NCBI RefSeq assembly: GCF_011927765.1
Contig: NZ_JAATJG010000001.1
Coordinates: forward strand, 282,792 to 346,791
Reading direction: 5' to 3'
Length of the DNA stretch: 64,000 bases
Origin: Wenyingzhuangia aestuarii
Lineage (GTDB): Bacteria; Bacteroidota; Bacteroidia; Flavobacteriales; Flavobacteriaceae
Shown here: piece by piece, positions 37,334 to 48,369 of the stretch
How the letters are laid out: every line of letters starts with the position of its first letter
Numbering within the stretch: the stretch's first letter is position 1
The notes under the pieces: model-generated
Seen by the model: only the letters and a program-made list of their open reading frames with translations
What the model was told of the DNA's origin: nothing
Databases searched by the model: none
Program-made: the position numbers and the translations under genes

Positions 37334-38947
37334 ATGAAAAGAATAGTATTGTTTTTCTTGTTGATAAGTGCATCGTTAATAGCACAAAATGACGAAGTTA
37401 AAGTAGACTTGTCTAGTCCTTATAAAACAATTTTTACTCACTTACATTTTTTACAAGCAGAAAGCTATAATGAACAAAAGGCTGCGGCTACCATTAATGG
37501 AGAGTCGCTAGAGAAATCTATTCAGATTGCTATAAAAATTAAGCAAGTTTTAGACGGAAAAGGATTAAAGGTAAATATGAAAAATTTGCCAACCAATCCA
37601 AAATATAAGGATACCATTTCTGAGGTTGAAATTAGAAGTCAATACGTTTTGTTTCCTAAGCAATTACCAGAAGTGTATTTAGAAAGAGTAAACGGTAAAT
37701 GGTACTATAGTCAAGATACCAATGAGCAGATTTTTTCAATTTACAAACAAGTGTTTCCTGCAGGTACAGAATTCATCAAAAAAATAATTCCTAATGTAGG
37801 ACACAAGGTTTTTTTAACAATTGAATTGTGGCAATATGTTGGAATTTTCATTTTTATCCTTCTAGGAGTTTTGTTGTTTTGGCTATTAAACAAGACTATT
37901 TTCTTTGTGTTAAAAAGGTTGGAGAATTTTTTCATGCGTTTTTCTCATGACTCTTTAAATAAAACTTTAGATAAGTTGTCTAGACCGGCTGCCTTGTTAA
38001 TTGTGTTCTATTTAATAGAGGTTTATATTCCTGTTTTACAATTTAATATTGATATCAATTCTTTTTTGATTAAAGGATTAGAGATTGGACAAATTGTTTT
38101 GTGGATATACGTTTTCTTAGAAATTGTAAGTGTACTAATAGAGGTGTATGTTTCTTATACATCAAGAACAGATAGCAAGTTAGATGATCAATTAGCTCCT
38201 ATTTTAAGTAGATTGTTAAAAGTGTTGGTGGTTTTTCTTGGGGTTTTAAAAATGCTAACCATTTTTGGAGTAAACACAACTACGGTTATTGCAGGGGCTT
38301 CTATAGGAGGTTTGGCTGTTGCTTTGGCATCTCAAGACACGGTTAAGAATTTAATAGGTACGTTTATGATTTTCTTAGACAAACCTTTTCAAATTGGAGA
38401 TTGGATAGAAGGTGGTGGTGTAGAAGGAACGGTGGAAGAAGTTGGTTTTAGATCTACAAGAATTAGAGCTGTAGACACTTCAATTTTTACCATTCCTAAC
38501 AGTAAGTTGTCAGAAATTGTGATTAATAATAAAGGATTAAGACAGTATAGAAGGTATCAAACCAAATTAGGAATTAGATACGATACTCCTCCAGAATTAA
38601 TAGAGGCTTTTGTGGTAGGAGTTAGAAGAATTATTGAGTTACATCCAGAAACTTTAACAAAATCTTACAATGTAGAGTTTGTTGGTTTTGGAGATTCCGC
38701 TTTAGAGGTATTAGTAAACACCTATTTTGTGTCTTTAGAGTGGGGAGTAGAACAATCGTCAAAACATAGATTGCATATGACTATTCTAACCTTGGCAGCA
38801 GAATTAGGAGTAGATTTTGCTTTCCCATCACAAACAGTCATGATAGAGCAGTTTCCAGAAAAGAGTAATGCCAATGGAAAATATGAAACAAATCAAGAAA
38901 AAATAAACGAAATTCTAAAAAACATAGAAAACGGATTTAGAGATTAG
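37334..38947 (+). CDS. MscS-family mechanosensitive ion channel
   Basis: 537 aa from the ATG at 37334, which gives a proper signal peptide (MKRIVLFFLLISASLIAQ); longer in-frame starts run through the terminator hairpin. A periplasmic domain of about 150 aa precedes four or five transmembrane helices, then the MscS pore helix and beta domain (GASIGGLAVALASQDTVKN, FLDKPFQIGDWIE). Predicted to release solutes on membrane tension. The N-terminal periplasmic part is an addition over E. coli MscS. Confidence 0.92.
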   Translation: MKRIVLFFLLISASLIAQNDEVKVDLSSPYKTIFTHLHFLQAESYNEQKAAATINGESLEKSIQIAIKIKQVLDGKGLKVNMKNLPTNPKYKDTISEVEIRSQYVLFPKQLPEVYLERVNGKWYYSQDTNEQIFSIYKQVFPAGTEFIKKIIPNVGHKVFLTIELWQYVGIFIFILLGVLLFWLLNKTIFFVLKRLENFFMRFSHDSLNKTLDKLSRPAALLIVFYLIEVYIPVLQFNIDINSFLIKGLEIGQIVLWIYVFLEIVSVLIEVYVSYTSRTDSKLDDQLAPILSRLLKVLVVFLGVLKMLTIFGVNTTTVIAGASIGGLAVALASQDTVKNLIGTFMIFLDKPFQIGDWIEGGGVEGTVEEVGFRSTRIRAVDTSIFTIPNSKLSEIVINNKGLRQYRRYQTKLGIRYDTPPELIEAFVVGVRRIIELHPETLTKSYNVEFVGFGDSALEVLVNTYFVSLEWGVEQSSKHRLHMTILTLAAELGVDFAFPSQTVMIEQFPEKSNANGKYETNQEKINEILKNIENGFRD

Positions 38948-39184
38948 TATGTTTTTTTGATTGTTTATTGATTATTTAATAAAAAAATATATCTATATTT
39001 GAGGATATTGGAAATAGATAGATTTTGTTTTGTTAAAGTCATTGTTTCATAATTAATTGATTTAATTATATTCATGTTGATTATTTTTTCGCTGTTGAGC
39101 TGGTTACTCAACAGCGATTTTTTTTTTGTTGCTGTTTTTTAAGTGATTAGCAATAAATCTTTTCTCTATATTAATTTATAATTG
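38948..39184. other. Noncoding stretch between the MscS gene and the arginine leader
   Basis: No supported ORF. The only structured element is the hairpin at 39089-39117. The rest is AT-rich without repeats or motifs that I recognise. With the leader region it forms a gap of 445 bp before the next full-length gene. Confidence 0.6.
39089..39127 (+). terminator. Intrinsic terminator upstream of the arginine region
   Basis: TCGCTGTTGAG (39089-39099) pairs perfectly with CTCAACAGCGA (39107-39117), then a long T-run. It lies about 140 bp after the MscS stop and insulates the arginine leader. Confidence 0.88.
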
Positions 39185-39192
39185 TATTTTTG
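39185..39192 (+). promoter_or_regulatory. Promoter -7 box of the arginine leader transcript
   Basis: TATTTTTG, a perfect TAnnTTTG. A start near 39198 would give a leader of about 195 nt before the acyltransferase gene, with the leader ORF starting about 18 nt into the RNA. Confidence 0.65.
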
Positions 39193-39215
39193 CACCCTAT
39201 TTTTTATTAATAACT

Positions 39216-39314
39216 ATGCATCAGGCAGTTAATATATTATTTTCATATGCTTCAGGTAAAATTACCTGCAGTACTGCTATTGTGTTTATTCGTAGGCGAC
39301 GAATTAGAGAATAG
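39216..39314 (+). CDS. Putative arginine-rich leader peptide (attenuator)
   Basis: A 32-codon ORF running ATG at 39216 to TAG at 39312-39314. It begins MHQAVNILFSYASGK and ends I-R-R-R-R-I-R-E. Five of the last seven residues are Arg, encoded by CGT, AGG, CGA, CGA (39291-39302) and AGA (39306-39308). AGG and CGA should be uncommon in so AT-rich a genome. It directly precedes genes for arginine synthesis and its stop codon lies inside a hairpin, the layout of a ribosome-stalling leader as in trp and his operons. Too short for normal gene calling. Translation is not proven. Confidence 0.7.
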   Translation: MHQAVNILFSYASGKITCSTAIVFIRRRRIRE

Positions 39315-39357
39315 CCTGTTGTTACAGGGTATTCAAAATTTTTAACACCTAATTTTT
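39309..39357 (+). promoter_or_regulatory. Candidate arginine attenuator hairpins
   Basis: Segment 2 (39309-39319) pairs with segment 3 (39324-39334): GAATA-g-CCTGT against ACAGG-g-TATTC around TGTT. Segment 3 can instead pair with segment 4 (about 39341-39350), a weaker fold of GGT.TT.AA with TT.AA.ACC. That fold is followed by TTTTT at 39353-39357. The two folds exclude each other. A ribosome stalled on the Arg codons leaves 2:3 free to form; one at the TAG covers segment 2 and favours 3:4, which would terminate. Pairings were worked out by eye. Confidence 0.55.
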
Positions 39358-39392
39358 AGCTAAAACGAAACAAAACTTATAAAAACACAATA

Positions 39393-40013
39393 ATGAAAAT
39401 TGTATCTGCCAACAAATCACATTTTAAATACGCTGACATCATATGCGATACCATAGAGACTTCTGCAAGAGTTAGAGGAACGGGTATTGCTAAGAGAACT
39501 CCAGAGTATATTAAAAAGAAACTAGAAAGTGGTGATGCTGTTATTGCTTTAGATGGAGTTAAATTTGCAGGTTTTTGTTATATAGAAACTTGGGAGAACA
39601 AATCTTATGTAGTTCACTCAGGACTAATTGTACATCCGGATTACAGAAATCAAGGATTGGCAAAAAAAATAAAAACAAAAGTTTTTAATCACTCTAAAGA
39701 AAAGTATCCTGATGCTAAAATTTTTGGAATCACTACTGGTTTGGCAGTGATGAAAATAAATTACGAGTTAGGATATAAGCCTGTTACTTTTTCAGAGCTT
39801 ACTAGAGATGAAGCTTTTTGGAATGGATGTAGATCTTGTAAAAACTTTGACATCTTAGAGCGTAACGAACGCAAAATGTGTTTGTGTACAGGAATGTTAC
39901 ACGATCCTAAAGAAGCGGAACGCAAAAACTTAAACAAAACAAAGGAGCCTAGTTTTGAGTTTAAAGCGAAGTTGGCTAGATTGAAAGATAAATTCTTTCA
40001 TAAAAAAAGCTAA
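39393..40013 (+). CDS. GNAT acyltransferase, candidate N-acylglutamate synthase
   Basis: 206 aa. GNAT fold with the acyl-CoA loop HPDYRNQGLAKKI (81-93). The C-terminus carries four cysteines (C146, C149, C163, C165), a likely metal site not found in ordinary GNATs. It is the first gene of the arginine region and sits directly behind the Arg-rich leader, yet no argA or argJ is present. The committed step, acylation of glutamate, is therefore the obvious role. I recall genetic evidence for a homologue upstream of argG in Bacteroides thetaiotaomicron. Succinyl or acetyl donor is unresolved; the argF' gene suggests succinyl. Confidence 0.75.
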   Translation: MKIVSANKSHFKYADIICDTIETSARVRGTGIAKRTPEYIKKKLESGDAVIALDGVKFAGFCYIETWENKSYVVHSGLIVHPDYRNQGLAKKIKTKVFNHSKEKYPDAKIFGITTGLAVMKINYELGYKPVTFSELTRDEAFWNGCRSCKNFDILERNERKMCLCTGMLHDPKEAERKNLNKTKEPSFEFKAKLARLKDKFFHKKS

Positions 40014-40206: not shown

Positions 40207-41403
40207 ATGGAAAAAGTAGTATTGGCATATAGTGGAGGTTTAGATACTTCGTATTGTGTAAAATATTTAATCAACGAACTAAACTTAGAAGTGCATTCAG
40301 TTTTGGTAAACACAGGTGGTTTTACCAAAGAAGAATTGGCTGTTGTTGAGAAAAAAGCATACGAAATGGGAGTTACCTCTCATGCTAGTAAAGATATTAT
40401 TGAAAAATACTACGATAAAGCTATTAAATACATGGTATACGGTAACGTGTTAAAAAACAATACCTATCCATTATCTGTATCAGCAGAGCGTGTGTTTCAA
40501 TCTATAGAGGTTGTAAAATATGCAAAGTCAATAGGAGCAAAATACATTGCACATGGTTCTACAGGAGCAGGAAATGATCAAGTTCGTTTTGATATGATTT
40601 TCCAAACCATCGCACCAGAAATTGAAATTATTACTCCTATTCGTGATTTAAAATTAGCTCGTCAAACGGAGATTGATTATTTAAAATCTCACGGAGTAGA
40701 TATGAACTGGGAAAAATCTAAATACTCGGTTAATAAAGGTATTTGGGGAACATCAGTAGGTGGAGTAGAGACTTTAAAATCTCAAAAAGCATTACCTAGC
40801 GAAGCGTACCCAAGTCAATTACAACGTAATGATGAAGAAGAAGTAACCTTAACTTTTGACAAAGGTCAGTTAGTGGCTTTTAATGGAGTAAAAGATACTC
40901 CGGTAAACAATATTTTAAAGCTAGAAGATGTAGCAACTCAATTTGCTATTGGTAGAGATATTCACGTTGGAGATACCATTGTAGGAATTAAAGGACGTGT
41001 AGGTTTTGAAGCTGCTGCTGCAACGGTTATTATCAAAGCGCATCACTTATTAGAAAAGCATACTTTGTCTAAAGCACAACAAATTACCAAAGAAGGATTG
41101 GCAACTACTTATGGAACATTTTTCCATGATGGTCAGTACTTAGAGCCTTTAATGCGTAACATAGAAAAGTTTTTAGAAGATTCTCAAAAAACAGTATCGG
41201 GTGATGTATATGTAACCTTACGTCCATATCATTTTATTGTAACAGGAATAGATTCTAAATACGATTTAATGGCTTCTGGATTTGCAGACTACGGTGAAGA
41301 AAACAACGCTTGGTCTAGTCAAGATGCTAAAGGGTTTATAAAAATATACGGTATGCAAAATAAAATCTTTTACCACGTAAATAAAGATTTGTTAGATGCA
41401 TAG
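40207..41403 (+). CDS. argG: Argininosuccinate synthase
   Basis: 398 aa. The start at 40207 gives MEKVVLAYSGGLDTSYCVKYL, the PP-loop N-terminus of ArgG; the longer in-frame ORF from GTG 40135 runs through the leader hairpin. AHGSTGAGNDQVRF and the citrulline/aspartate region KSKYSVNKGIWGTSVGG are conserved. Joins citrulline and aspartate with ATP. First of a run of arg genes on the plus strand. Confidence 0.97.
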   Translation: MEKVVLAYSGGLDTSYCVKYLINELNLEVHSVLVNTGGFTKEELAVVEKKAYEMGVTSHASKDIIEKYYDKAIKYMVYGNVLKNNTYPLSVSAERVFQSIEVVKYAKSIGAKYIAHGSTGAGNDQVRFDMIFQTIAPEIEIITPIRDLKLARQTEIDYLKSHGVDMNWEKSKYSVNKGIWGTSVGGVETLKSQKALPSEAYPSQLQRNDEEEVTLTFDKGQLVAFNGVKDTPVNNILKLEDVATQFAIGRDIHVGDTIVGIKGRVGFEAAAATVIIKAHHLLEKHTLSKAQQITKEGLATTYGTFFHDGQYLEPLMRNIEKFLEDSQKTVSGDVYVTLRPYHFIVTGIDSKYDLMASGFADYGEENNAWSSQDAKGFIKIYGMQNKIFYHVNKDLLDA

Positions 41404-41529: not shown

Positions 41530-42507
41530 ATGATAAAAGCAGGAATAGTAGGAGGAGCAGGATATACAGCAGGAGAATTAATCAGATTGATTTTAAATCA
41601 TCCTGAATTAACATTGGATTTTGTGTACAGTACTTCTAATGCTGGAAACAAATTATACAAAGTACATGTAGATTTGTTAGGGGATACCGAACAAGATTTT
41701 ACAGATACCATTAACCCAGAGGTTGATGTGTTGTTTTTGTGCTTAGGACACGGAAATTCTACTACTTTTTTACAAAATAATACGTTTTCTGACAACACTA
41801 AAATCATCGATTTAAGCAACGATTTCCGTTTGAATGCAGATATGGTTTTTGAAGGAAAAGAATTTGTATACGGATTGCCAGAAGTAAGCAGAAAAGAAAT
41901 TAAGAAAGCAAAATACATTGCCAATCCTGGTTGTTTTGCTACTTGTATTCAGTTTGCTTTGTTGCCTTTAGCAAAAGCTAAAAAATTAGAAAACGATATT
42001 CATATCAACGCTACTACAGGAGCTACAGGAGCGGGAGTTTCGCCAACGGCAACATCTCACTTTCCTTGGAGAGATAACAACTTTTCTGTGTACAAACCTT
42101 TTACACACCAGCATTTGGGTGAAATAGGAGAAACGTTAGAAGCTTTACAAGGTTCTAAAGCAGGAGAATTGTTCTTTATTCCAAATAGAGGAAACTTTAG
42201 TCGTGGAATTTTTGCATCAGTCTATACCAAGTTTGATGGAACTTTAGAAGAAGCTAAAGAGATTTTTACACGGTTTTATGCAGATGCACCTTTTGTTCAC
42301 ATTACGGATGCACCTGTGAATATGAAACAAGTTGTGAATACAAACAAATGTGCCATTTCCTTAATCAAACACGGAGACCAAATTTTAATTTACTCTGCCA
42401 TCGATAATTTATTAAAGGGAGCTTCAGGACAAGCGATTCAGAACTTAAATTTAATGTATGGTTTTGAAGAAACTTTAGGGTTGAATTTAAAAGGAAGTGC
42501 ATTTTAA
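41530..42507 (+). CDS. argC: N-acetyl-gamma-glutamyl-phosphate reductase
   Basis: 325 aa. N-terminal NADP motif GIVGGAGYTAGELIRL, the catalytic cysteine in YIANPGCFATC, and TTGATGAG and HRH-like FTHQHLGEIGE. Reduces N-acylglutamyl phosphate to the semialdehyde. If the pathway runs on succinylated intermediates, it would accept those. Confidence 0.96.
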   Translation: MIKAGIVGGAGYTAGELIRLILNHPELTLDFVYSTSNAGNKLYKVHVDLLGDTEQDFTDTINPEVDVLFLCLGHGNSTTFLQNNTFSDNTKIIDLSNDFRLNADMVFEGKEFVYGLPEVSRKEIKKAKYIANPGCFATCIQFALLPLAKAKKLENDIHINATTGATGAGVSPTATSHFPWRDNNFSVYKPFTHQHLGEIGETLEALQGSKAGELFFIPNRGNFSRGIFASVYTKFDGTLEEAKEIFTRFYADAPFVHITDAPVNMKQVVNTNKCAISLIKHGDQILIYSAIDNLLKGASGQAIQNLNLMYGFEETLGLNLKGSAF

Positions 42508-42581: not shown

Positions 42582-43709
42582 ATGAAATTATTTGACGTTT
42601 ACCCATTATACAACGTGACTCCTGTAAAAGCAGAAGGAGCTTATGTTTGGGACAATAAAGGAGATAAATATTTAGACTTATACGGAGGTCACGGAGTGAT
42701 TTCTATTGGTCATACACATCCACATTACAAAGCTGCGTTAGAAAATCAATTAAGTCAAATTGCTTTTTATTCTAATGCTATTCAAAATCCATTACAACAA
42801 GAATTGTCTGATAAATTAGGAGAATTATCAGGTTGTGGAGAAGAGTATGCTTTGTTTTTGTGTTCTACAGGAGCAGAAGCAAACGAGAATGCTATTAAAG
42901 TAGCTTCTTTTTACAATCAGAAGTCTAGAGTAATTGCGTTTCAAAATGGATTTCACGGACGTACTTCGGCAGCTGTATCGGTAACAGACAATAAAAAAAT
43001 TATTGCTCCGGTAAATGCGCACAATCCTGTGACTATTTTACCTTTAAATGATATTGAAGCTGTAAAAGCTGAAATTGAAAAAGGAGACGTAACAGCAGTT
43101 ATTGTAGAACCAATTCAGGGAGTTGGAGGATTAGATATGCCAACCACGGAGTTTTTAACGGAGCTACGCTCAATTACAAAACAACACAATGTGTTGTTAA
43201 TCTTAGATGAGGTTCAGTCTGGTTACGGACGTTCTGGTAAATTCTTTGCGCACCAACATCACGGAATCAAAGCAGATATTATTCCAATGGCAAAAGGTAT
43301 GGGGAATGGTTTTCCTATTGGAGGAGTGTTAATTGCCAATCATATTGAACCTTGGTACGGAATGTTAGGGACTACTTTTGGAGGTTCTCACTTAGCTTGT
43401 GCTGCGGGTATTGCGGTGTTAGATGTGATGAAACAAGAAAACCTAATGCAAAATGTTCAGGATGTAAATGCTTATTTTCAAGAACAAGTAAAAGATTTGC
43501 CAGGTGTAAAACAAGTAAAAGGAAAAGGATTAATGCTTGGGTTAGAATTTAACTACGAAGTAGGAGAATTGCGCAAGAAATTAATTTACGACTATAAAAT
43601 ATTTACAGGAGGAGCCAACAACAAAAACTTGTTGCGTATTTTACCACCTTTAAATGTAACTAAAGCAGATATTGATGTGTTTGTGAAAGCATTGAAAGAA
43701 TTATTATAA
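42582..43709 (+). CDS. argD: Acetylornithine/succinylornithine aminotransferase
   Basis: 375 aa class III PLP aminotransferase. CSTGAEANENAIKVA, the PLP-aspartate LDEVQSGYGRSG, and the Schiff-base lysine in IPMAKGMGNGFPIGG. Converts N-acylglutamate semialdehyde to N-acylornithine. A terminator directly follows. Confidence 0.95.
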   Translation: MKLFDVYPLYNVTPVKAEGAYVWDNKGDKYLDLYGGHGVISIGHTHPHYKAALENQLSQIAFYSNAIQNPLQQELSDKLGELSGCGEEYALFLCSTGAEANENAIKVASFYNQKSRVIAFQNGFHGRTSAAVSVTDNKKIIAPVNAHNPVTILPLNDIEAVKAEIEKGDVTAVIVEPIQGVGGLDMPTTEFLTELRSITKQHNVLLILDEVQSGYGRSGKFFAHQHHGIKADIIPMAKGMGNGFPIGGVLIANHIEPWYGMLGTTFGGSHLACAAGIAVLDVMKQENLMQNVQDVNAYFQEQVKDLPGVKQVKGKGLMLGLEFNYEVGELRKKLIYDYKIFTGGANNKNLLRILPPLNVTKADIDVFVKALKELL

Positions 43710-43816: not shown

Positions 43817-44776
43817 ATGAAACACTACTTATCCATTCACGATTTACCAAGTATTAAAGACACGGTAAAAGAAGCGATTGAAATCAAAAAGAATCCATTA
43901 AAAGACCAGACTTTAGGAAAAGATAAAACCATTGGTTTGTTGTTTTTTAATAACAGTTTGCGTACGCGTTTAAGTACTCAAAAAGCAGCGTTAAACTTAG
44001 GAATGGAGCCTATTGTAATGAATTTTGGTTCAGAAGGATGGCAGTTAGAGTTCGAAGATGGAACCATTATGGATCAAGGAAAATCTGAACATGTAAAAGA
44101 AGCGGCTGAGGTAATTTCTCAATATTGTGATATTATCGCTATTCGTGCATTTGCAGGATTAGAAGACAAAGAAAAAGACGAAGCAGAAGAAGTGTTGTCT
44201 GCCTTTGTAAAATATGCTACTGTGCCTATTTTAAATATGGAATCTTCTGTGGGGCATCCATTGCAAGCCTTGGCAGATGCTATTACGATTGAAGAGCACA
44301 GACCAGCTAAAAAGAAATTAAAAGTGGTATTGTCTTGGGCACCGCATCCACGTGCTTTGCCTCATGCAGTAGGGAATTCTTTTGCAGAAATGGCTTTGGC
44401 TCACGAAGATGATTTTGAAGTAGTCATTACCCATCCAAAAGGATATGAATTAAACCCGGAAAGAACCAAAGGAGCAACTATTGAATACGATCAAAAGAAA
44501 GCTTTTGAAGGAGCAGACTTTATTTATACTAAAAACTGGTCGTCTTATAACGATTATGGAAAAGTTGCAAATACAGATAAATCTTGGACAATTACAGCAG
44601 ATAAAATGGCCGTAACAGACAATGCCAAATTTATGCACTGTTTACCGGTTCGTAGAAATGTAATTGTGGCTGATGAGGTAATTGATTCTGAAAATTCAAT
44701 CGTTATCAAACAAGCAAATAACAGAACTTATTCTGCGCAAGTTGTATTAAAAAAGATTTTAGAGAATTTAAAATAA
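43817..44776 (+). CDS. argF': N-succinyl/N-acetylornithine carbamoyltransferase
   Basis: 319 aa transcarbamylase of the Bacteroides and Xanthomonas type rather than a standard ornithine carbamoyltransferase. SLRTRLS is the carbamoyl-phosphate motif, HCLPVRR the C-terminal signature, and APHPRALPHAVGNSF and HPKGYELNP fit this subgroup. As I recall, residue 90 or 92 in the loop before EH sets specificity: Pro in the B. fragilis succinylornithine enzyme, Glu in acetylornithine enzymes. Here it is Ser90 (DQGKSEH). Small residues at that site gave succinyl preference in published mutants, so N-succinylornithine is my prediction. Confidence 0.85.
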   Translation: MKHYLSIHDLPSIKDTVKEAIEIKKNPLKDQTLGKDKTIGLLFFNNSLRTRLSTQKAALNLGMEPIVMNFGSEGWQLEFEDGTIMDQGKSEHVKEAAEVISQYCDIIAIRAFAGLEDKEKDEAEEVLSAFVKYATVPILNMESSVGHPLQALADAITIEEHRPAKKKLKVVLSWAPHPRALPHAVGNSFAEMALAHEDDFEVVITHPKGYELNPERTKGATIEYDQKKAFEGADFIYTKNWSSYNDYGKVANTDKSWTITADKMAVTDNAKFMHCLPVRRNVIVADEVIDSENSIVIKQANNRTYSAQVVLKKILENLK

Positions 44777-44850: not shown

Positions 44851-45450
44851 TTAATAAATGGAATTTTTGTTAATTTCCTTTAAAATTTTTTTTGCTAAAT
44901 AGTGGGTGTTAAAATTACTTATAAAATTATTTTTTTTATCAGAAGATTCAACTTCTACAGCAAAGCATGAAAGGTTGTATATTAACTTTGAATTGGCTAA
45001 ATCATAAATACGAATATTAAACTGAATCTCATTGGAACGAGTTTCATGAATTCCTATTTTTTGCTTCGTAATATTTTGGTTGAAAATGTTTTTAACGGAA
45101 GGTACAATGATATAATCATGTTTTGTTAGTTCTCTAATTATTTTAAGATCTTTTTTAGATAGCTTTTCTTTGATAGGAAAGGGAAAAACATATTGACCTT
45201 TGTTGTTCTTTAATGTCTCAATTTGCATTAATCGACCCTTTAAAAAAGAATTTAAAGGGTGATTTTTAAATAAGTTATCAGAATCAGTATTAATGATTTT
45301 TTGATTTGAAATCAACCATTTTCCTTGTCTAAAATCAATAGTTTTATTGTTACTATTATAATCAAAAGAAGTGTATATGTTTTTTTGAAAAAAACAGGAA
45401 ATTAAACAATTAATGATTATTGTGTAGATGAATATTTTTTTTATTACCAT
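44851..45450 (-). CDS. Putative lipoprotein of unknown function
   Basis: 199 aa, not recognised. The N-terminus MVIKKIFIYTIIINCLISCFFQK contains a lipobox-like LISC. The mature part is rich in Asn, Lys and Ile, with a region (HDYIIVPSVKNIFNQNITKQK) recalling periplasmic beta domains, but I cannot place it. It overlaps the upstream barrel gene by 7 bp. More AT-rich than the arg genes on either side. Confidence 0.65.
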   Translation of the reverse strand: MVIKKIFIYTIIINCLISCFFQKNIYTSFDYNSNNKTIDFRQGKWLISNQKIINTDSDNLFKNHPLNSFLKGRLMQIETLKNNKGQYVFPFPIKEKLSKKDLKIIRELTKHDYIIVPSVKNIFNQNITKQKIGIHETRSNEIQFNIRIYDLANSKLIYNLSCFAVEVESSDKKNNFISNFNTHYLAKKILKEINKNSIY

Positions 45451-45977
45451 CCTAACCCAAATCTTAAGTGAATATTGATTGAAGATTCGAAATTGTTAGT
45501 CTTAAAATTACGTTGAATACCAAGTCCAAAACCTGTTTCATAGTTTAGGGAATTGTTAATATTTCTTCTAATTCCCCAAGTGATATTACTTTTTAGAATA
45601 TTGTTTAGGTTGTATTCTTCTCTTTGATTGTTTTTAATAATATTATCTAAATAATATTTAGTCTGAAGACTTATAAAATTAGCACTATTGTTTTTAATGT
45701 CTTTTCCTTTGATTTGTCTTTTCTTAATATTATAGTACCATTTAGGCTCAATAGTTATAGATGGATTTGCTATAAAAAAGTTTTTACCAAAACCAATATC
45801 TGTTCCTATTTCTGTTCTTAATACTGTATTGTGTATAAGTTGAGTTTCATTGTATGCCCATATTCCGTATACACCTATTTGACCTCCATAAATATTTTTT
45901 TCAACTTTGCTTTCTTGTGAGTAAGAAAGCAAAGTGAAAAAACATAAAATAAATGTAATTTTATTATAGTTTTTCAT
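45444..45977 (-). CDS. Putative small outer-membrane beta-barrel protein
   Basis: 177 aa. Signal peptide MKNYNKITFILCFFTLLSYSQ, then alternating strands with Gly and aromatic residues (GGQIGVYGIWAYNETQLIHN, YETGFGLGIQRNF). The terminal segment HLRFGLGW ends in Trp, as in barrels recognised by BAM. No family recognised. Middle gene of a three-gene minus-strand cassette inside the arginine region. Confidence 0.65.
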   Translation of the reverse strand: MKNYNKITFILCFFTLLSYSQESKVEKNIYGGQIGVYGIWAYNETQLIHNTVLRTEIGTDIGFGKNFFIANPSITIEPKWYYNIKKRQIKGKDIKNNSANFISLQTKYYLDNIIKNNQREEYNLNNILKSNITWGIRRNINNSLNYETGFGLGIQRNFKTNNFESSINIHLRFGLGW

Positions 45978-45989
45978 GATAATTTAAAA

Positions 45990-47519
45990 TTAATTTGAAC
46001 CAATAATTCTTTTACCGTACCACCTACCATTATATAAAGCTGCACCATAAATATCAAAACTTTTTATTTCTTGAATTGTTTTGTAATTTGAAAAAGAAAA
46101 ATTACTAAAACTAAAATTACCTCCTAGGGTGTGAGAATATCCAATCATAAATCCTAAGTCTATATATTTTTTAATACTATTGTCGCCAGATTTAATATGT
46201 TTTATATTACCAATAGTATATAGTTGATTCCAACTATCTTGATTACGTATTTTAAAAGCTGGTTCAGATGTGTTTTTTAAGACATTAGATAGTTGCTTTA
46301 TCCCATTTTTTAATTGCTGTTGAGCTAAATTATTAATGGATTTATATAAATCTATTTTTGTATAATCTAAATGAATTTCATTAAAAAGAGGGACTTTAAG
46401 ATTGATGTTAATGATGTTGTTCGGGATATCTACATTTGCTGTATTTAAAGGAAAACTATATATTCTTTCTTTGGAGACTTCTTTACCATAAGAGTCATAA
46501 TATCTATTATAATACTCAAATTGATATGTATCGTTACTCCAATCGTTGTTGAAGTTATATATGGATGGTTTTTTTCTAATAAGACTCATGTTGTTGATAC
46601 CTAACTGGACTTTTGAAGGGTATGATTTTTCCCAAAAAGTCCATCTCCAAACTTTTCTTTTTTTCTGAAATCTAACCTCCATTCCAGTAGAGTTAAATAA
46701 AAGATAGTTGTTGTCCCAATATTTTATTTTAACTCTTCTATTGTTTGGTGTGTAAACATATGTTGTGTGATTAATTCCTATTTTTTTCTCCCATAAACTA
46801 TTTCTTCTTTCCTCGTCATAATCTAAATTGGATGAGTTTTCAAATGTCATTTCACTATCATTACTATTTCTCATAGATGTTAATGGATGCTTAGTCTCAT
46901 TCTTAATCTCGCCTATTTGGCTGTAATCGGAAATTATATTATTTTGAAGATTAAGTTTAATAAAAGTTACATTATTTTTAGCCTCTTTAATTAAAGATTT
47001 TCTAGAATTATTATGGTCTACTATTGGTTGTATATATACACCTTCAGATGTGTAACGGTATAGTTTATTGTCAATTATTAATTCTCTATTTTTATTTAGT
47101 AAAACTTGAAAATTTGGATCAAGTATGATTGTTTCTTCAAAGACTATTTCATCTTCGTTGTTTAAATAGAATTTTTCAAGATATTTTAATCTTTCATCAT
47201 CGTTTTCAAAATACGGCTTAAGTGGTATAAAGCCAGATTGTATATTAGGTTTTACATATTGATTATAATATTTCTCTGGAGTTAATAGTTTTATAGATTC
47301 TATTTCTTTAAGGAATTCATTTTTATTATTAAAAGAAATTTTGTTGTCTACAAATTGTAAGTTTTTTATACTTGATACTTTTGTAGGTTTACCTTCTATC
47401 AATTCATTGTTTTTAGAACAGGAGGTACTAAATAAAAAATGACTGAGTATTAGTAAATGTATAAGATACCACGTTCTTTGTTTCTTTGTTTCTTTGTTTC
47501 TTTGTTTCTTTGTTTTCAT
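45990..47519 (-). CDS. Large putative lipoprotein with tandem-repeat N-terminus
   Basis: 509 aa, function unknown. The N-terminus MKTKKQRNKETKKQRTW is encoded by five copies of an 8-bp repeat (47474-47513). A hydrophobic stretch and lipobox STSC follow (LIHLLILSHFLFSTSCSKNN). The mature part is Asn-, Lys- and Tyr-rich without a domain I know; WRWTFWEKSYPSKVQLGINN and a C-terminal GYSHTLGG section stand out. The 8-bp unit is not a multiple of three, so copy-number change would break or restore the frame. First gene of the cassette. Confidence 0.65.
   Translation of the reverse strand: MKTKKQRNKETKKQRTWYLIHLLILSHFLFSTSCSKNNELIEGKPTKVSSIKNLQFVDNKISFNNKNEFLKEIESIKLLTPEKYYNQYVKPNIQSGFIPLKPYFENDDERLKYLEKFYLNNEDEIVFEETIILDPNFQVLLNKNRELIIDNKLYRYTSEGVYIQPIVDHNNSRKSLIKEAKNNVTFIKLNLQNNIISDYSQIGEIKNETKHPLTSMRNSNDSEMTFENSSNLDYDEERRNSLWEKKIGINHTTYVYTPNNRRVKIKYWDNNYLLFNSTGMEVRFQKKRKVWRWTFWEKSYPSKVQLGINNMSLIRKKPSIYNFNNDWSNDTYQFEYYNRYYDSYGKEVSKERIYSFPLNTANVDIPNNIININLKVPLFNEIHLDYTKIDLYKSINNLAQQQLKNGIKQLSNVLKNTSEPAFKIRNQDSWNQLYTIGNIKHIKSGDNSIKKYIDLGFMIGYSHTLGGNFSFSNFSFSNYKTIQEIKSFDIYGAALYNGRWYGKRIIGSN
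47474..47513 (-). repeat. Five tandem TTCTTTGT octamers in an ORF 5' end
   Basis: Five exact 8-bp copies at 47474-47481, 47482-47489, 47490-47497, 47498-47505 and 47506-47513, beginning 4 bp inside the start codon of the lipoprotein gene. Typical of a slipped-strand phase-variation tract. Confidence 0.85.
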
Positions 47520-47589: not shown

Positions 47590-48369
47590 ATGAAAAAAAA
47601 ACTAACCATCGTAAAAGTAGGAGGAAACGTAATTAACAATGCAGAGGCATTGGAAAATTTTTTAACGGATTTTGCTGCTTTAGAAGGAAATAAAATATTG
47701 GTTCACGGAGGTGGAAAACGTGCTACTCAATTGGCAGGTGATTTAGGTATAGAAGCCAAAATGATCAACGGACGTAGAGTGACTGATGAAGCAACTATTG
47801 AAATTGTAACCATGGTCTATGCAGGTTTGTTAAACAAAAACATCGTAGCTACGTTGCAAAGTAAAAACTGTAATGCCTTGGGATTGTCGGGTGCGGATGG
47901 GAATTCTATCCAGGCTCACAAACGCGTGGTGGTAGATGTAGATTACGGTTTTGCTGGAGATGTTGATGGTATCAACGCACAAAACATTGCTACGTTTATC
48001 AATGGAAAAATGACTCCTGTTTTTTGTGCCATTACGCATGATGGAAAAGGGCAGTTGTTAAATACCAATGCAGATACGATTGCAAGTACCATTGCTGTAG
48101 GAATGTCAGATTTATATGATGTTTCTTTGGTGTATACATTCGAGAAAAATGGAGTGTTGACTTCTGTAGAGGATGATGATTCTGTTATTACAGACATCAA
48201 CTCAGAAAAATATGCACAGTTAAAAGCAGATGGAATTATTGCAGATGGAATGTTGCCTAAAATGGAAAACTGTTTCAATGCTTTACAACAAGGAGTGTCA
48301 GAAGTAATTATAGGCAACCCAACGGTAATTAAAAATAAAAAACAATTGTTTACAACGTTGACTATGTAG
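47590..48369 (+). CDS. argB: N-acetylglutamate (N-acylglutamate) kinase
   Basis: 259 aa amino acid kinase. TIVKVGGNVINN, LVHGGGKRAT and the C-terminal IADGMLPKMENCFNALQQG are typical. Phosphorylates N-acylglutamate. The upstream gap (47520-47589) shows no TAnnTTTG box, so its promoter is unclear now that the minus-strand cassette separates it from argF'. Confidence 0.95.
   Translation: MKKKLTIVKVGGNVINNAEALENFLTDFAALEGNKILVHGGGKRATQLAGDLGIEAKMINGRRVTDEATIEIVTMVYAGLLNKNIVATLQSKNCNALGLSGADGNSIQAHKRVVVDVDYGFAGDVDGINAQNIATFINGKMTPVFCAITHDGKGQLLNTNADTIASTIAVGMSDLYDVSLVYTFEKNGVLTSVEDDDSVITDINSEKYAQLKADGIIADGMLPKMENCFNALQQGVSEVIIGNPTVIKNKKQLFTTLTM

Follow-up and report, generated by a model that had tools for sequence, protein, structure and literature searches.

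Ribosome-mediated attenuators control the trp, his, and leu operons of Proteobacteria, and in these systems the leader open reading frame (ORF) is rich in codons for the end-product amino acid. Bacterial arginine biosynthesis is a classic example of control by repressors, here the arginine-responsive ArgR and AhrC, and in fungi the arginine attenuator peptide is the product of an arginine-responsive upstream ORF. In Salmonella, Arg codons of orf34 in the speF leader sense arginine, with outputs that involve Rho, a hairpin downstream of the stop codon, and mRNA decay (RNase G) (PMC6386406). Staphylococcus aureus rbfL is a leader peptide whose Arg codons sense arginine restriction (PMC13009471). 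For Flavobacterium psychrophilum, leader-peptide attenuation before amino acid operons was suggested in 2021, and the conserved structured leaders named there include those of pheA and hisG (PMC9723704). Among the papers listed in a literature search, none pointed by its title or the opening of its abstract to a leader peptide of an arginine operon in Bacteroidetes, and passages on the P. aeruginosa carA leader (PMC4997734) and on leader reinitiation (PMC4833913) held no precedent for one. The original prediction had called attenuation by an Arg-coding leader hardly described in bacteria; among the papers listed this holds for arginine operons of Bacteroidetes. Arginine-sensing leaders are known on other genes (orf34 and rbfL), and flavobacterial attenuation had already been suggested.

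The locus described here lies in a 64,000-nucleotide stretch of DNA from Wenyingzhuangia aestuarii (the window), of the family Flavobacteriaceae, order Flavobacteriales, and class Bacteroidia; the leader and the arginine genes are all on the forward strand. It resembles the trp, his, and leu attenuators in having a short ORF rich in end-product codons before a biosynthetic operon and a hairpin at the leader stop codon. It differs from them in its amino acid, arginine, and in the lack of a conserved U-tract terminator in the window; most loci of the family differ further in a hairpin, P2, with a conserved apex that is absent from the window. The likeness to speF orf34 is one of anatomy alone, namely, a leader ORF with Arg codons: orf34 controls ornithine decarboxylase and senses arginine at codons 12 and 13 of 34, away from the stop codon. 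Also unlike the window leader, rbfL responds to limiting arginine by lowering the translation of a biofilm regulator. F. psychrophilum belongs to the same family as the window, and pheA and hisG, named for it, are not arginine genes. The fungal ORF is arginine-responsive, as is proposed here for the window leader, and encodes a eukaryotic arrest peptide.

The leader ORF, read in the sequence and by family comparison, occupies 39216-39314 (ATG start, 32 codons plus TAG). Its translation, MHQAVNILFSYASGKITCSTAIVFIRRRRIRE-stop, has the 32 residues and the five Arg among the last seven that were originally predicted, with the C terminus RRRRIRE. The Arg run, CGT AGG CGA CGA ATT AGA (RRRRIR), lies at 39291-39308. 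When both strands of the window were scanned for ORFs of 12 to 60 amino acids with an ATG, GTG, or TTG start, the ORF was the only one with at least five Arg in its last seven residues; the same 12- to 60-amino-acid scan of 929,029 bases of related named loci returned 10 ORFs, 8 of them at the leader position. The occurrence of the Arg-rich ORF is more than chance. About 23 nt before the leader ATG, at 39185-39192, lies the box TATTTTTG, a presumptive promoter element of the form TAnnTTTG that is kept in all six genus members compared; TAnnTTTG is the consensus stated for the flavobacterial -7 box in PMC9723704. Upstream of the leader, a strong terminator-like site was found at 39089-39117.

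The operon behind the leader makes the end product whose codons the leader contains. Its first gene (39393-40013) encodes a GNAT acetyltransferase, with Pfam matches to Acetyltransf_7 and Acetyltransf_1 over the cut-off. No NCBIfam model scored over its cut-off and phmmer found no PDB match at an E value of 0.01, so this GNAT stays a likely but putative committed enzyme. It is followed by argG, encoding argininosuccinate synthase (40210-41403; NCBIfam argG models strong but below their cut-offs); argC (41530-42507; TIGR01850 over the cut-off); an argD-like aminotransferase gene (42582-43709; Aminotran_3 over the cut-off, with TIGR00707, argD, best but below its cut-off); an argF'-like N-acylornithine carbamoyltransferase gene (43817-44776; NF003384 over the cut-off); and, beyond three ORFs on the other strand, argB (47590-48369; TIGR00761 over the cut-off). 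The three opposite-strand ORFs, at 44851-47519, separate argF' from argB within the arginine cluster. The GNAT itself carries a C-terminal cysteine cluster, CRSC...CLC, and a similar GCEGC stretch was seen in class relatives.

Comparison with relatives gives strong support to a leader that senses arginine: its Arg-rich ORF is conserved across flavobacteria and, more weakly, in the wider class, and it probably serves as an arginine gauge in bacteria lacking ArgR. GNAT was present in 57 of 99 genomes, the window's own counted. ORFs whose last 10 residues include at least three Arg, and whose stop codon lies 40 to 360 nt upstream of GNAT, were found at 48 of the 57 loci (again counting the window's own); the opposite strand had them at 2 of 57. 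A stricter threshold of at least four Arg gave 38 of 57 versus 2 of 57. By kinship, the three-Arg ORF was found at 40 of 41 loci in the family (a count that includes the window) and at 8 of 16 order loci outside it; conserved Arg codons at homologous GNAT-argG loci had been proposed as a check. Nine of the 57 loci, eight of them outside the family, had no such ORF, which weighs against an arginine-sensing leader, as does a signal that is weaker in the wider class than in the family and order. Class-wide sampling added 29 loci (six being of the same family); the leader was found at 17 of the 29, compared with 3 for the opposite strand. With a looser criterion, the counts were 50 of 75 versus 17 of 75, in a set that includes the 29, has an antisense control with a slightly different position range, and groups L283 (genome G450, with a weak and distant ArgR match) with the ArgR-lacking loci. 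Four members of one same-family genus (g152; L228, L229, L230, and L254) also failed the Arg-leader criterion. By eye, three of these four show an ORF with scattered Arg codons.

The Arg codons follow the reading frame. At 147 loci with the frame fixed by the stop codon, codons -4 to -15 before the stop contained 309 Arg among 1,764 in frame versus 92 and 73 among 1,764 in the shifted frames, and 0 stops in frame versus 46 and 86; most of these loci came from a search pattern fixing the last codons, which lie outside the tested range. By these counts, the Arg excess is frame-specific, and the relatives share a small leader ORF in which codons for the operon's end product abound.

No match to the ArgR C-terminal domain (PF02863) was found in 60 genomes or in 148 genomes of the order, the window's own included in both sets, and 8 of 14 controls, one of them a Bacteroides, were positive. 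The pathway is the one under ArgR/AhrC control elsewhere, and the arginine response proposed for it is the same, but 148 of 148 order genomes lack the domain; with no ArgR-type repressor found in its genome, the locus was not classed as an ArgR-controlled operon. In the class, an ArgR match was found in 11 of 247 genomes, and 7 of these 11 also have GNAT. In six of the seven (L255 to L260; the argR start of L256 was placed by hand for the folding profile described below), the gene immediately before GNAT, on the same strand, is argR-like and occupies the place where the leader would lie. At this one locus, a protein repressor has apparently been swapped for a translation-based sensor. The seventh genome (G450), with a weak ArgR match far from GNAT, does not fit this exchange. 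The four remaining ArgR-positive class genomes had no GNAT match. Upstream of the six argR genes, no convincing Arg leader was seen; at two of them, an ORF passed a loose criterion, one of these being the tail of a longer reading frame. If conserved in the repressor's place, a leader peptide would show how the pathway is controlled in an order without ArgR.

Sequence comparison shows that the Arg-rich frame is conserved before arginine genes, that conserved hairpins accompany it, and that ArgR is absent. The leader of the GNAT-argG operon is probably translated and senses charged tRNA-Arg, so that expression would be high under arginine scarcity. Translation of the 32-codon ORF would begin shortly after the start of transcription. 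A ribosome supplied with enough arginine would pass the Arg codons, reach the stop codon, and leave; with scarce arginine, it would stall on CGU-AGG-CGA-CGA. The stalled ribosome would open a hairpin over the Arg codons and P2 would stay free, while a ribosome at the stop codon would cover the 5' arm of P2, and this difference in RNA state would decide expression of the arginine genes. A ribosome footprint reaches about 13 nt beyond the A site, so a stall at 39291 would leave P2 free and a ribosome at the stop codon would cover that arm. The P2 of most relatives is more distant from the stop codon; there, P2 would be free in both states and the ribosome would instead disturb P1. We infer that the ORF is translated, that the ribosome stalls on it, and that control runs in this direction. 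The nearly invariant nucleotide sequence of the Arg stretch within the genus, where a single synonymous change (AGG to AGA, in L004) was found, is a point against codon sensing.

The leader at 39198-39395 folded better than shuffled sequences (z of -3.36), with three predicted hairpins. P0 (39253-39268) lies within the ORF, ahead of the Arg codons; over six genus members, 97.2% of its cells were paired and three pairs had changed on both sides. A P1-like hairpin covers the Arg codons at 39288-39304 (-3.8 kcal/mol); in the genus, 90% of its cells were paired, and three of its five pairs never vary. P2 (39309-39334; -13.6 kcal/mol with 3-nt flanks) holds the stop codon, TAG at 39312-39314, in its 5' arm, in keeping with the original prediction. 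A hairpin at the P2 position was predicted in all six genus members; in the counted register, 88.3% of its cells were paired and no pair had changes on both sides, which weakens the case for P2 in the window's own genus. GNAT was present in six of seven genus genomes, and all six keep the Arg run and the three predicted hairpins. In 39 family and order loci outside the window's genus, a folding profile showed structured spots near -40, at 0 to +10, and at +30 to +40 relative to the leader stop; the same profile was less sharp in 48 class loci. A window-pair scan likewise pointed to a hairpin within the ORF before the Arg codons, with a z of -6.5 in loci with tandem leaders and of -4.1 to -4.6 in the others.

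The stop codon in the P2 arm, and the run of five T at 39353-39357 that follows P2 as predicted, would suit classical attenuation of the trp/his kind, in which P2 is an antiterminator whose 3' arm can otherwise join a U-tract terminator ending at 39357. This reading is improbable. The weaker terminator-like fold that was to use the other arm of P2 reached -1.4 kcal/mol in the window and was not predicted in any of the five genus relatives; the five-T run was missing in three of six genus members, and no terminator was conserved. No mutually exclusive antiterminator and U-tract terminator was thus found before the first gene. The idea of an Arg-codon leader before arginine genes has strong support from its conservation, frame-specific Arg codons, operon content, and the lack of ArgR; the trp/his switch geometry first attached to it finds no support in the window. 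P2 as an intrinsic terminator was likewise rejected for the window and most relatives; were it one, stalling, which leaves P2 free, would cause termination, the wrong direction.

Most relatives in the family share an RNA element made up of two hairpins: a short one, P1, at the stop codon that closes the leader, and downstream of it P2, with a GGUGNGUCC-type apex. The apex motif (GTGNGTCC or GTGCGCCC) was found within 130 nt of GNAT at 33 of 41 family loci and at none of 16 loci outside the family. The 33 rows of alignment A1 were taken from the 57 GNAT loci for holding this motif, so the invariance of the apex in A1 is partly by choice. P2 of the element covaries, with changes on both sides in six of its eight pairs and 94.3% of cells paired, and P1 had little informative variation; for P1 and P2 together, 92.7% of cells were paired versus 24 to 62% in slid controls, and 30 cells had changes on both sides versus 8.4 in shuffles. 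Compensatory changes, which had been named as a check on both folds, were seen in P0 of the genus and in P2 of the family element, and none was seen in the counted register of P2 in the window's genus. A P2-only alignment, A4, was left out of modeling because its stem was misaligned.

A covariance model of the element, R1, found it in 185 of 299 family genomes, or 161 of the 249 good ones. The window matched R1 nowhere in its leader (best E value, 0.8, elsewhere in the window); its genus lacks the GGUGNGUCC-type apex, and the missing family element counts against the proposed sensor. No Rfam family matched the window at its gathering score, nor did any approach that score within 38900-39700 or in seven relatives. 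Named genomes were scanned with a pattern that fixes P1 and the apex sequence; this returned at least 119 stretches, and 80 names among the matches listed carried Flavobacteriaceae or wider Bacteroidetes labels. Downstream of 117 of the 119 matches listed lay GNAT (116) or only argG (1); at the two others, the end of the locus was cut there. At the best-scoring 39 model loci, argG was in the locus in all 39. L068, L083, and L120 have the element and then argG, with GNAT unrecognized between them. In nine genomes, extra matches to the element (L097 to L106) were judged spurious by sequence and context. After reduction of 189 element loci to distinct ones and omission of a chance match (L042), 165 remained.

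The apex motif at 33 of 41 family loci, which codon sensing alone leaves unexplained, and the CGYCGCCC stretch that doubles as a hairpin arm raise the reading that arginine or a protein is bound by the RNA itself, with the Arg codons arising as a side effect of C- and G-rich hairpin sequence. We consider this very improbable: Arg is enriched in the frame only, also outside the hairpin arm, and leaders rich in Arg remain at loci that have no apex motif, for example in the window's genus. The P2 apex may be complementary to the 16S 3' end. Pairing of the apex with P1 seemed possible by eye but was lost where P1 varies, and it was not counted. The element offers a strongly conserved RNA hairpin to which a partner may bind.

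Further evidence against a terminator at P2 came from the 165 element loci. Directly behind P2, where classical attenuation would require one, a T-rich stretch was found at only 27, versus 43 and 111 at two control offsets further downstream. Between P1 and the GNAT start, a custom-made detector allowing loops of up to 13 nt found terminator-like sites at 93 of the 165 loci versus 30.0 in shuffles. In 40 listed loci, these sites were mostly P1 with a U-rich spacer. The positions richest in T, however, began about 8 to 9 nt past the P1 stem, and P1, considered as an intrinsic terminator, is perhaps a pause hairpin. By eye, class-level loci had no U-rich spacer after P1.

How a sensing leader acts on the operon is less settled than the sensing, which is likely. 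The stretch between P2 and GNAT has 6.1% G and 17.0% C, versus 13.2% and 12.5%, respectively, upstream of the 58 mechanical ORFs of the window, a composition that fits Rho loading or open translation initiation. Premature termination needing no canonical terminator in the window, for example by Rho, is somewhat favored as the output. Control of GNAT translation is a less probable one: the leader and its hairpins would govern how readily ribosomes reach the start of GNAT, 55 to 80 nt or so downstream, as in erm and rbfL. The G-poor stretch between P2 and the ATG, as expected of an open initiation region, and the lack of a conserved terminator would agree with this, but low G with higher C suits Rho equally, and no strong pairing between leader and pre-GNAT sequence emerged from 171 window pairs, where single-leader loci reached a z of -2.8 at the lowest; on balance, we regard translational control as rather unlikely. 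An effect on mRNA stability is a shade less probable again. Whatever its output, a leader that senses arginine makes attenuation testable in bacteria whose ribosomes do not depend on Shine-Dalgarno pairing.

A second Arg-rich ORF further upstream was found at 49 of the 162 element loci with enough upstream sequence (L018, L027, and L030 among them), after 5 of 54 candidates (L007, L008, L015, L084, and L156) were dropped by eye; none was found at the window locus. A broader account, put forward tentatively and with rather less than even confidence, is that in ArgR-lacking lineages across much of the class an arginine-counting leader stands at the place of argR without a canonical terminator, that P2 acts through a Rho-linked or RNA-binding factor, and that some lineages stack two leaders, the first with its own long-range terminator. 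In the tandem loci, the opening codons of the upstream ORF pair with a segment that immediately precedes a U tract (10.2 T in 14 nt). The resulting helix resembles a terminator with the Arg codons in its loop, which makes classical transcription attenuation plausible in those relatives, and the apparent coevolution of the ORF start with the pre-U-tract segment at the 49 loci counts in favor of that reading; the window, with no second ORF found, does not share it. In swap tests whose statistics ignore kinship, which limits this support, the helix scored -9.33 kcal/mol for own pairs versus -7.60 for swapped partners (z of -5.8) and was, in the expected register, the best of 49 window pairs (z of -7.8). 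RNAalifold found no structure in the tandem alignment A3 (43 of the 49 loci; the six omitted were kept in both swap tests), and the helix emerged from the alignment-free swap test. Within 32 nt of the ATG of the upstream ORF, a loosely promoter-like box was found at 43 of the 49 loci, and it matched TAnnTTTG strictly at 16.
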